A stretch of 64,000 nucleotides of DNA from Paragemmobacter straminiformis (GTDB lineage Bacteria; Pseudomonadota; Alphaproteobacteria; Rhodobacterales; Rhodobacteraceae): positions 124,001 to 188,000 of the forward strand of contig NZ_JACLQD010000001.1 of NCBI RefSeq assembly GCF_014243445.1, written 5' to 3'. Positions 54,778-59,548 of this stretch are shown here, piece after piece. The position numbers were made by a program, and so were the translations under genes. Positions within the stretch are counted from its first letter, which is position 1. Each line of letters opens with the position of its first letter. The notes below the pieces were generated by a model. It saw only the letters and a program-made list of their open reading frames with translations, searched no databases and was not told where the DNA came from.

Positions 54778-55131
54778 CTTTTCTGCTGCGCGGTCGGATA
54801 TCCGCATCTCAAATGTGCGCCGCACGGGGGGCGGTTGATCGCGATTTCAACGATCCGCGCGCTGAAGGGGTGGCCCGGCTGCGCCCGTGCAGCCGCTGCC
54901 AAGGCAGGGGTCATGCCGCTGATCCGCAGCCTTGCCGTGGAATGGGGACCGGAGGGCATTCTGTGCAACAGGGTCGCTCCCGGTCCGATTGGCGGCACCG
55001 AAGGCGTCAAGCGGCTGCATGAAGAAACCGGCCAGTCCACCGCCCAGTCCATTGGCCAGTCCATTGGGCTACCGGCGGGGCGTCCCGGGCGGGCCGAGGA
55101 TGTGGCGCAAGCCGCGCTTTACCTGTGCTAG
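54778..55131 (+). pseudogene. Short-chain dehydrogenase/reductase C-terminal remnant
   Basis: The frame reads GGRLIAISTIRALKGWPGCA, AAAAKAGVMPLIRSLAVEWG, NRVAPGPIGGTEGVKRLHEE and GRPGRAEDVAQAALYLC, then TAG. This is the C-terminal half of an SDR of the 2,4-dienoyl-CoA reductase kind. The N-terminal Rossmann half is missing, and the last strand is cut short (family members normally continue past YLC). A small insert with repeated QS (STAQSIGQSIGLPA) is present. Remnant. Confidence 0.75.
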
Positions 55132-55475
55132 CTGGCGGACAGATAGGCCGCCACTTCGGATCGCAGATCGCGCAGCCTTGCGTTTATCGCTTTCGCAGCG
55201 GTTGCGGCGTCTGCGACCTCGCCCGCGCGCGCATCTGCTTCCAGTTTCGCGCAAAGGTCGCCCGTCACCCCGTCTCCGAGATCGCGGCAAGAGGATTTGA
55301 GCGTGTGCGCGATGCGGTGCAGGGCCTTTACGTCCATCGCAGCGGCAGCGGTGGTCAATTGATCGGACAGGCTGCCCACCTCGTCAACGAAGCTTTGCAG
55401 GATGTCGGCGATCACGAGATCGTCGTCGCCGACGGCATCGCGCATCCGCTGGATCGCTTCGCGGGTCAATCCCAT
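55128..55475 (-). CDS. Hpt histidine phosphotransfer protein
   Basis: 115 residues, one Hpt domain. The phosphorylated histidine is His57 in ALHRIAHTLKSSCRDLG. It starts 11 bp after the stop of the hybrid kinase, so both are in one operon. It would shuttle phosphate from the kinase's receiver domains to a response regulator that is not encoded nearby. Cytoplasmic. Confidence 0.92.
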   Translation of the reverse strand: MGLTREAIQRMRDAVGDDDLVIADILQSFVDEVGSLSDQLTTAAAAMDVKALHRIAHTLKSSCRDLGDGVTGDLCAKLEADARAGEVADAATAAKAINARLRDLRSEVAAYLSAS

Positions 55476-58400: not shown

Positions 58401-59548
58401 GGGCTCATGGTGCTTTGGGGTTCGCGCGCGGCGATGACGATGTCTGTCGCGGCCCAGATGACGGGAATCGAGATCGCGAACAGCACCCAAAGCGATGCGT
58501 TCATGCCGTCACCCGTCTCGCGCACCGCGATCAGCACCACCGCTCCGGTAAGCCCGATCAGCAGGCCCATGAACCGCCGCCACGAAGCCTCCTCCATCCG
58601 CAGGACGGCGGCGAAAAGAAAGACACACAGCCCCTGAAAGGCAAGGATGATGGACAGGATGATCCCGCTGACCCGCCCCGACGCCTCGAACAGAAAGATC
58701 GATCCCACCACGTTCAGAACGGCCCAGACGAAAAGAAAGGAAAGGGTCTGGCGCGTCAGACGTCCCATCTTGCCCTGCAAGGCCGCAAAACCGATGCAGA
58801 GGAACCCCGGAAGCAGATCGCCCCAGAAGGACAGACCCGTCGCCATCGGTATCTGCTGGAACAGCAGGGCCGACATCGGGGCCATCATCCCGCCGATGAC
58901 CCCTGCGAGGATGAGAAGAACGAACCCCTGCGATGTTCTCACGCTTCTGAGCAGCGCACGCTCGCGGTCATAGACCTGAAGCGCCATTTCCGAAAACACG
59001 CGGGCCAGACGGCCGACCGAGTCATCGCGCCCGGCCACGGCACCCAGACCGAGGTTCTTCGGGTGGAACGCCTTTTCCTCCATCATCGCTGCCGCCGCCG
59101 AGACACGTTCGACCTGCGCGAGGTAGTCGAGTTCCGCATCCCGCAAGCGCTTCTTCTCGATGCAGGCCTCGACCCGCGCGCGGAAGATCGCCGCGCTGAA
59201 ATCCTTGGGAAGAAAGTCGGCGGCCCCCAGTTCTATGGCCCGCGCGACACTGTCCATGTCGCCGTCCATCCCCGAAATCACCAGAACGGGTATGGCCGAC
59301 AGCCGCGTATCCGCCCGCATCGCCTCGAGCACCCCGAACCCGTCGAGCCCCGGCATCATGATATCGAGAAGGACAAGATCGACATCGTTGTGGCGCAAGA
59401 ACTCCAGCGCCGCCTCGCCATCGGGCATCTCGGTCCAATGGTGCCCGAGGTTCCGGACCGCCATCGCCATCTTGCGCCGGCTGCCAGCGCTGTCGTCCAC
59501 GACAAGCACGTGGCTGTTGAAGGCATCGCTGCTGGCAGTAGCGGTCAA
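55487..59548 (-). CDS. Hybrid histidine kinase with an embedded EamA/DMT transporter domain
   Basis: 1353 residues. Receiver 1 at about 12-130 (phospho-Asp62, Lys115). About ten membrane helices at 207-490 end in ASQAAYVTTLAGIFWSMLLL-GEHMTNGAW, the typical EamA (drug/metabolite transporter) close. PAS 1 at about 560-680 (WEHDMRTGRTEISERWAEIL), PAS 2 at about 687-810. HisKA with His837 in FLATMSHEIRTPMNGI. HATPase with RQVILNLTNNAVKFTETGE, ILDTGIGIP and YGGTGLGLAI. Receivers 2 (Asp1127, Lys1181) and 3 (Asp1274, Lys1327). The transporter domain has two five-helix halves, as in complete EamA proteins. Followed by Hpt. Inner membrane; signal unknown. Confidence 0.9.
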   Translation of the reverse strand: MTATASSDAFNSHVLVVDDSAGSRRKMAMAVRNLGHHWTEMPDGEAALEFLRHNDVDLVLLDIMMPGLDGFGVLEAMRADTRLSAIPVLVISGMDGDMDSVARAIELGAADFLPKDFSAAIFRARVEACIEKKRLRDAELDYLAQVERVSAAAAMMEEKAFHPKNLGLGAVAGRDDSVGRLARVFSEMALQVYDRERALLRSVRTSQGFVLLILAGVIGGMMAPMSALLFQQIPMATGLSFWGDLLPGFLCIGFAALQGKMGRLTRQTLSFLFVWAVLNVVGSIFLFEASGRVSGIILSIILAFQGLCVFLFAAVLRMEEASWRRFMGLLIGLTGAVVLIAVRETGDGMNASLWVLFAISIPVIWAATDIVIAAREPQSTMSPIGGLGVMYLLSAALTLPIALAQGQLFALPPDLGPAFWLILVNTLVDTFNYVFYVLLVLVAGAVFASQAAYVTTLAGIFWSMLLLGEHMTNGAWIALGFIFVGLLVVGPKSEAADMEVQFIPKSRRKGWLRQFVLPQVRPPAQEEASASGTEAATAGPAHGGGADISAQIRAERRLARLIDGARVGTWEHDMRTGRTEISERWAEILGYRAADLNPLTLDRWIALVHPDDIDLLNRQEAQAFAAGQWQIETEIRLRHREGHWVWVLTRTQATEWDASGKPVRTSGVNLDITAAKAMEAALARERDTLAKIMETSVSGIVAVDGMGRVVFANAGAERVLGRPVTAGASLHALLATGEVSDLNGKPILPDDFPVSRASGGQTAQQDRRLTILWPDGQRRILSMNAAPLSGSGIDLAVVFALTDITDAVESEDRLRAAMTAAEAANEAKSHFLATMSHEIRTPMNGIIGMTQLLSATKLDAEQRDYCSTIAQSSEALLSVINDILDFSKIEAGAFDVEQIPFDLFTTVEGTLDVISVRAVEKDLELVYWIDPDQPRWVVGDPLRLRQVILNLTNNAVKFTETGEVFLRVSLAKPMDAGKLTVRFQILDTGIGIPADRLDRLFKSFSQVDASTTRRYGGTGLGLAISKRLVELMGGEISVRSEVGHGTEFFFDLPLGLAEETPAEGDSATAAVQIGGRTAMVVDDNATNRRVLGLHLRTFGMTPIEAPDAETALRMLADGPQPDIVILDMQMPRTDGIELARRIRALPQGRMVPLVLSSSLHVSRSQIGVLDEAGEFAGLLSKPIKPSALLEVIGSALRSDALAAKPAAALAAPHPDQRLADEFPMRILVVDDHPTNRKFCAAALRKLGFEPMLAASGEEAVALAAGTSFDVILMDIEMPDMDGIEATAKIRGQTAGTDQPCFVALTANAIAGDREKYLQAGLDDYVSKPIEIGELVRALRAAATRRTAPRPSGT

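Follow-up and report, generated by a model that had tools for sequence, protein, structure and literature searches.

The window analysed here is a stretch of 64,000 nucleotides from Paragemmobacter straminiformis (contig NZ_JACLQD010000001.1, positions 124,001 to 188,000). It contains a gene for a 1353-residue hybrid histidine kinase, in which a receiver (REC1), a helical linker and an entire EamA domain of the drug/metabolite transporter (DMT) type precede the kinase half, and next to it a gene for an Hpt protein. In this study, we show that the first 500 residues, REC1-linker-EamA, form a module that is found elsewhere with no kinase attached; this context is what is new. We read the module as an output, i.e. 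a response regulator with a DMT transporter as its effector, and the window protein as a natural fusion of output and kinase, a reading to which we assign a probability of roughly 0.55. Two-component systems usually lead from a sensor to a transcription factor, and a minority have enzymes as outputs. Titles and abstracts of open-licence papers, a scope outside which the standard output-domain surveys lie, contained no description of a REC-EamA protein or of a response regulator with a transporter effector.

Domain organization of the fused kinase and its Hpt protein

The fused gene lies on the minus strand (positions 55487 to 59548, TTG start) and encodes the order REC1-linker-EamA-PAS-PAS-HisKA-HATPase-REC2-REC3, as the original prediction had it and as the Pfam scan bears out. 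REC1, identified by Pfam, by its residues and in the receiver tree, spans residues 13-130 (59159 to 59512), the linker residues 131-206 (58931 to 59158) and the EamA domain, with ten helices in two EamA repeats, residues 207-490 (58079 to 58930). The junction with the kinase half (residues 494-548; 57905 to 58069) comprises a tail and a low-complexity stretch rich in A, G, P and E. It is followed by a PAS_3 domain (residues 580-669; 57542 to 57811), a second PAS domain (residues 689-808; 57125 to 57484), HisKA (residues 827-892; 56873 to 57070) with phospho-acceptor H837, HATPase_c (residues 939-1054; 56387 to 56734), REC2 (about residues 1078-1195; 55964 to 56317) with D1127, and REC3 (residues 1226-1338; 55535 to 55873) with D1274 and K1327. 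PAS domains are the only candidate sensor domains of the kinase half, which lacks a membrane segment. Eleven bases past the stop codon, and likewise on the minus strand, a strand assignment that we add to the original prediction of a linked gene, starts the Hpt gene (55128 to 55475; 115 residues, H57), the product of which is the likely phosphotransfer partner.

In the Pfam scan, Response_reg matches three stretches of the fused protein (223.5 bits summed) and EamA two (56.7 bits for the whole protein, cut-off 28.2); in a whole-genome EamA scan the two repeats score 43.9 and 31.4 bits separately, each above that cut-off. PAS_3 scores 76.6 bits, the second PAS domain exceeds the cut-offs of PAS_8, PAS_9 and PAS_4, HisKA and HATPase_c reach 78.1 and 106.7 bits, and the Hpt protein scores 44.5 bits against a cut-off of 24.6. 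All five predicted phospho-sites (D62 of REC1, H837, D1127, D1274 and H57 of Hpt) are found at their positions, and REC1 also carries D18, D19, S92 and K115. With HisKA, HATPase, receivers, Hpt and every phospho-site present, the two genes encode a hybrid histidine kinase with its Hpt protein, and the parts of the postulated phosphorelay are at hand. No SLC5-STAC or Amt domain was detected in the fused protein by the Pfam scan (E 0.001), the membrane domain being EamA. Among the best 25 of 160 matched NCBIfam models none attains its cut-off, BarA coming first with 483 of 890 bits; hybrid kinases of the BarA/TorS/ArcB type share the HisKA-HATPase-receiver core, whereas in the window Hpt is a separate gene.

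The REC-linker-EamA module occurs without a kinase

A profile built from two rows of linker and EamA separates the module from ordinary transporters. Among the matches listed, receiver-attached EamA proteins score at least 157 bits and match from profile position 1-4, and stand-alone EamA proteins score at most 142 bits, mostly from position 55-73 and in a few cases from about 30; a broken third REC-EamA copy in genome G285 scores 101 bits. The module was found in at least 8 of 394 genomes of the family sample, at least 13 of 390 of the order sample and at least 3 of 398 of the phylum sample. The class sample (at least 1 of 385) and the genus sample (1 of 19) yielded it in the window's own genome only, the 18 other genomes of the genus being without it. 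These samples overlap, and because four or five candidates were scored per genome except in the genus search, the counts are lower bounds. The window frame is the only REC-linker-EamA match of more than 1000 codons among the matches listed, in agreement with the supposed rarity of the fusion.

A single-protein scan of genome contigs from 84,980 species found no module, and a ten-row profile applied to the same contigs retrieved at least 28 loci through a single pattern. Four of these are stand-alone EamA genes (L099-L102); the other 24, of which L104 and L105 are broken, have both a receiver and EamA. The 24 come from Frigidibacter, Defluviimonas, Roseibium, Limimaricola, Roseovarius, Aliiruegeria, Ruegeria, Tateyamaria, Sulfitobacter, Limibaculum and Brevirhabdus, and from metagenome-assembled genomes (MAGs) labelled Geminicoccaceae, Granulosicoccaceae, Gammaproteobacteria and Rhodothermales, the last of which may reflect a binning error. 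Plasmid records added three Mesorhizobium plasmids, on which the module is annotated as 'response regulator'; on the two examined it is preceded by a 'GAF domain-containing protein' with HisKA and HATPase matches and by an Hpt gene. Sets of three genes are found in Ruegeria marina, Aliiruegeria lutimaris, Limimaricola cinnabarinus and on Mesorhizobium loti plasmid pML2037, among others. On pML2037 (strain NZP2037, locus L189) the set occupies positions 4388-10203 near replication and conjugation genes and is followed by a hydroxyacid dehydrogenase gene; horizontal transfer of the set is possible, with the plasmid itself typed as non-mobilizable by PLSDB. The first REC-EamA gene has a second, divergent one next to it in Frigidibacter, Defluviimonas and Brevirhabdus (L080:9163-10710, L081:9175-10701 and L095:9292-10797), and the REC-EamA protein of Defluviimonas salinarum (L098) is of the same type as these second copies.

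The window's own genome carries a second REC-linker-EamA gene, a frame of 527 codons without a kinase (contig 8, about 745 kb). Over the first 500 residues the two modules are 48% identical (linker 67%, REC 51%, EamA 42%), the linker being the best-conserved part. An Hpt gene lies directly before this second copy; behind it follow an oppositely directed SBP_bac_3 gene, a hybrid kinase gene of the order HisKA-HATPase-REC-REC and a REC-GNAT gene. The kinase of this locus is the nearest relative of the window's kinase core within the genome (51%, 502 bits; next 324 bits), and its Hpt protein is the only one in the genome that matches the window Hpt at E 0.01. The two loci are therefore paralogous sets.

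Kinase, Hpt and module genes stand side by side

For the analysis of gene neighbourhoods we used 32 module loci, leaving out duplicates (L071, L074, L076, L077, L106-L118, L157, L158 and L190); eleven duplicate pairs were confirmed by shared sequence. A hybrid-kinase frame and an Hpt gene lie on the same stretch as the module in 27 of the 32 loci. In 26 of these 27 the module is a gene of its own, the window being the only case of fusion to the kinase, and in 22 loci the Hpt gene directly precedes the module on the same strand. As a control, none of 84 stand-alone EamA loci (median 3.9 kb; all distinct stretches, at least four pairs of which have the same EamA) shows an Hpt, kinase or receiver frame, and among REC-EamA loci of about this length Hpt is found in 11 of 13.

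At E 0.001, nine of the 12 separate kinases scanned match a HAMP and/or periplasmic sensor domain, seven of them above the Pfam cut-off; those without are the kinases of L039 and L079 and the broken frame of L072. A solute-binding-protein gene stands beside five of the seven sets in which such a neighbour was scanned. The neighbours vary from locus to locus (SBP_bac_3 in L039, L073 and L075, DctP in L074 and L076, and proteins of 302 residues in L071 and 256 residues in L077 without a Pfam match) and therefore give no basis for naming a substrate.

In most sets REC1 is the only receiver of response-regulator type seen. Other receivers near the module are those of REC-GNAT proteins (L039, L079), of REC-guanylate cyclase proteins (L085, L097) and of a 139-residue protein (L156), besides broken or contig-end pieces in L078, L090, L095 and L105. 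The REC-GNAT genes, which have a GNAT acetyltransferase effector, adjoin REC-EamA sets at L039:15430-16383 (plus strand) and L079:5675-6661 (minus strand) and are candidates for a second non-DNA output of the same relay. Genes for REC-guanylate/adenylate cyclases are located between kinase and Hpt at L085:5956-7014 and L097:5484-6575, both on the minus strand. The three genes are condensed in another way in L156 (6739-10440, plus strand), where the kinase carries Hpt at its C-terminus. In the window itself, the Hpt gene is adjoined by a short plus-strand frame (54772-55131) that matches the C-terminal half of short-chain dehydrogenases only (adh_short_C2 positions 117-217) and is probably a gene remnant.

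REC1 groups with response-regulator receivers

In a tree of 80 receivers, REC1 shares its group with REC-GNAT and REC-cyclase receivers, from which REC2 and REC3 are separated with a support of 94 in the Shimodaira-Hasegawa-like approximate likelihood ratio test (SH-aLRT); the tree comprises 120 columns, has SH-aLRT values without bootstrap and includes one miscut row (L091, where the REC2 cut took REC3). By this grouping REC1 appears to be a receiver of the terminal response-regulator type and not of the hybrid-kinase type. Its residues D18, D19, D62, S92, F112 and K115 are kept in 26 of 26 rows; S92 and F112 occupy the places of the Ser/Thr and aromatic switch residues in terminal receivers, as described in the available excerpts of PMC9981736. 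The catalytic residues tested are kept throughout, in 25 of 25 rows for REC1, 24 of 24 for the kinase and 25 of 25 for Hpt. Across the module as a whole (26 rows) mean column identity is 55%, with 52 invariant columns. All 25 receiver-attached EamA domains lie on one side of a branch that separates them from 86 stand-alone relatives (SH-aLRT 99). Ten other hybrid kinases from the window genome were included in a tree of the catalytic parts of 24 kinases of the sets; nine of them fall outside the clade that the 24 form (96/97), and the tenth, L163, lies within it on a long branch.

The MAG KLAP69 (L079) has the unfused gene order of the window's kinase lineage. Here a REC-EamA gene, a 716-codon gene for a PAS-HisKA-HATPase-REC-REC kinase and an Hpt gene stand in line, followed by the REC-GNAT gene in opposite direction, and by hydropathy this kinase has no membrane segment. 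Its core is 68% and its Hpt protein 60% identical to those of the window (46-52% and 18-35% for the other rows), and both are sisters of their window counterparts with 100/100 support. The REC-EamA protein of L079 is 53% identical to the window module, the highest value being 55% (L155). Simple descent of the fusion from the KLAP69 order can be kept in part only, since in the tree its REC-EamA part goes with the paralogue in the window genome; the locus is not a simple ancestor of the fused gene.

Fold of the EamA domain and the two joints

The EamA part is predicted to adopt the ten-helix DMT transporter fold. Comparison of the structure model with solved structures gave a DMT-fold match over about residues 198-494 to the choline transporter LicB, to 5i20 and to TPT (5y78); most rows of this comparison are receivers, and the DMT chains named are those among the matches listed. 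We take 5i20 to be YddG. All three share the DMT fold of the window protein, and their aligned chains consist of the transporter part only. The EamA repeats above cut-off together with this fold confirm the identification of the domain and rule out a generic membrane sensor in its place.

The two flanks of the domain are joined differently. In the predicted structure a helix of residues 177-219 runs unbroken from the linker into the first transmembrane helix (TM1). On the other side, residues 494-520, at the end of the model, have a predicted local distance difference test (pLDDT) score below 50, and residues 522-547 are rich in A, G, P and E. With REC1 joined to the transporter by a helix and the kinase by a low-complexity stretch, the module is built as one would expect of an output, not of a sensor.

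A frameshift or fusion artefact is unlikely, since the frame is open over all 1353 codons, since the GC content at third codon positions (GC3) is 0.72-0.90 along the gene, if the last three codons are left out, and 0.82 where EamA passes into PAS, and since homologues of each half exist separately elsewhere; the fusion is known from one assembly. Codon 544, within the junction, has a GGAGG string, with the rare start ATT 7 bases further on (codon 548); of the common starts, TTG at codon 558 comes next. An additional, kinase-only translation product from these starts is possible on the basis of the nucleotide sequence.

Discussion

We read REC-EamA as an output because it is a separate protein in all kinase-and-Hpt loci except the window, because most of the separate kinases scanned have sensor matches of their own, because REC1 groups with terminal receivers and because it is joined by helices to the transporter. 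The kinase half, with its two PAS domains, HisKA and HATPase, would sense a cytoplasmic signal and autophosphorylate at H837. From there the phosphoryl group would pass to D1127 of REC2 or D1274 of REC3, on to H57 of the separate Hpt protein and finally to D62 of REC1, an order that we propose because of established phosphorelay logic. Phosphorylated REC1 would then alter transporter activity through the conserved helical linker to TM1, so that a membrane transporter, not DNA, would be the end point of the signal. In the window, sensor and effector would share one polypeptide with Hpt as a shuttle; in the relatives, the same parts would be products of neighbouring genes, and a periplasmic signal would reach the kinase and the relay set transport, which fits both the sensor matches of these kinases and the solute-binding-protein genes beside them. 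The direction of phosphotransfer, the gating of transport by REC1 and transport by EamA are what we infer. The original prediction held that no cognate output regulator is nearby; this is probably wrong, as the fused protein most likely carries its output in its N-terminal half, receiver and EamA.

Response regulators with non-DNA effectors are a wider class to which PleD belongs. PleD is also the nearest solved structure to the module profile (E 3.5e-40, receiver part). In PleD, a diguanylate cyclase, the receiver precedes the effector as it does in the module; the effector of the module is an integral membrane transporter fold. Fusions of transporters to kinases have been described, and the window protein resembles them in outline only. 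According to the available excerpts of PMC5764959, Ks-Amt5 is a fusion of an ammonium transporter and a histidine kinase, the transporter domain of which senses ammonium without translocating it. As in the window, a whole transporter fold stands ahead of a histidine kinase in one polypeptide. Unlike the window protein, Ks-Amt5 as presented there has an Amt fold and not a DMT fold, consists of Amt and kinase without PAS, HAMP or STAC, and has no receiver in front. CbrA has been called a rare transceptor (PMC13022988, excerpts); its transporter domain transports, is reported to be unnecessary for signalling and modulates autokinase activity (PMC7096432, excerpts). CbrA and CrbS have a transporter domain, PAS and kinase on one chain, like the window protein, but in the descriptions of them the transporter is of the SLC5 fold with a STAC linker, the phosphate is received by a separate response regulator (CbrB, CrbR), and the domain orders described have no receiver ahead of the transporter.

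Several observations weigh against the output reading. In the fused protein EamA occupies the place usually held by the membrane sensor of a kinase, ahead of a kinase half without a membrane segment. A sensing role of EamA in this protein is possible, with less support than the role as an output. The history of the parts is not uniform, as the REC-EamA protein of L079 pairs with the second copy of the window genome (100/99) and the window module lies within the same five-row clade; nor does REC1 form one clade, since the receivers of REC-GNAT and REC-cyclase proteins fall within it and the paralogue's REC1 is basal. Five of the 32 loci lack a kinase frame or Hpt: in L078 the contig ends within the kinase, L098, L104 and L105 are broken, and in L072 an integrase-type insertion sequence (7758-8924, minus strand) lies between kinase and REC-EamA, the flanking genes on both sides looking shortened. 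Since in addition the kinase of L090 is split over two frames, the system seems to be dispensable in some lineages. Some loci are close relatives (L080/L081, L091/L092, L093/L103), so that 27 loci are not 27 independent events. DNA-binding proteins also occur nearby. In L075 a LuxR-type (GerE) protein of 615 residues without a receiver match (431-2278, minus strand) directly follows REC-EamA on the same strand and is possibly a transcriptional arm of the set; a Trans_reg_C/TPR protein, again without a receiver match, stands beside the second copy of L071; in L083, on the opposite strand and 1.2 kb off, there are an OmpR-type REC-Trans_reg_C regulator and another hybrid kinase with its own Hpt (8991-12403, minus strand); and a LysR gene lies upstream in the window itself. 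Given the neighbours in L075, L071 and L083, the statement that no set contains a DNA-binding regulator was dropped. Finally, the window protein has G219, I233, G243, G282, S294, G306 and V342 where W, G, Q, P, P, P and P are 93-100% conserved in the 86 stand-alone relatives. Such changes affect mostly the first EamA repeat and are frequent in other REC-EamA proteins too; transport may be altered or lost, or the substrate may be another one.

The scheme originally proposed for the protein was that of a transceptor, in which substrate binding or transport at EamA sets the activity of the fused kinase; REC1 would then be a modulating receiver or a phosphate sink. The position of EamA ahead of a kinase half without its own membrane segment and the existence of Ks-Amt5 and CbrA speak for this scheme. 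We nevertheless consider it unlikely, with the EamA half unattached to the kinase in 26 of 27 loci, with nine of 12 separate kinases having sensor matches of their own, seven above cut-off, and with the kinase, but not REC1, hanging on a stretch of low pLDDT and low complexity; even in CbrA the transporter domain is, in the excerpts cited above, dispensable for signalling. The direction of signalling from transporter to kinase is accordingly not supported by the receiver type, the helical linker and the separate genes of the relatives, and the true direction is probably the reverse.

Alternatively, the EamA fold might have lost transport and provide REC1 with an anchor in the membrane, a receptor or a docking platform. 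The replaced residues of the first repeat would agree with such a switch, for which Ks-Amt5, binding without translocating in the account given of it, is a precedent. What makes us doubt it is the conservation that remains: 23 residues that are conserved to at least 85% in both the receiver-attached and the stand-alone group are retained, including the second-repeat motif A443, G444, V446, F447, Q450, Y453, T456, G459, W462 and E469, and the module as a whole has the mean identity and the invariant columns given above. A very improbable alternative is that the fused gene has no function of its own and is decaying or an artefact. The fusion occurs once among the matches listed, is absent from the 18 other genomes of the genus and comes from a single assembly, and some relatives have broken copies; against this, the frame of 1353 codons is intact with normal GC3 across the junction, every catalytic residue tested is kept, and the Hpt gene is intact and of the matching lineage.

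On the output reading, the module would define a family of response regulators with a membrane transporter as output, in which a rigid helix would tie the receiver to TM1 and two-component signalling would open or close a transport path directly and without transcription, and which in the window bacterium would be condensed to one sense-and-transport polypeptide plus Hpt; for this wider picture we see about even odds. The fused protein links the parts in the manner of a Rosetta stone; on this one construct, signalling between transporter and kinase can be measured in either direction, and the three-gene sets make the relay testable in named strains. About two dozen related gene sets encode these parts separately in adjacent genes, which suggests that the transporter may be under direct control of the kinase, without a step at DNA. 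If a conserved relay from kinase through Hpt to transporter holds true, it would allow these bacteria a direct, fast and reversible setting of metabolite flux.

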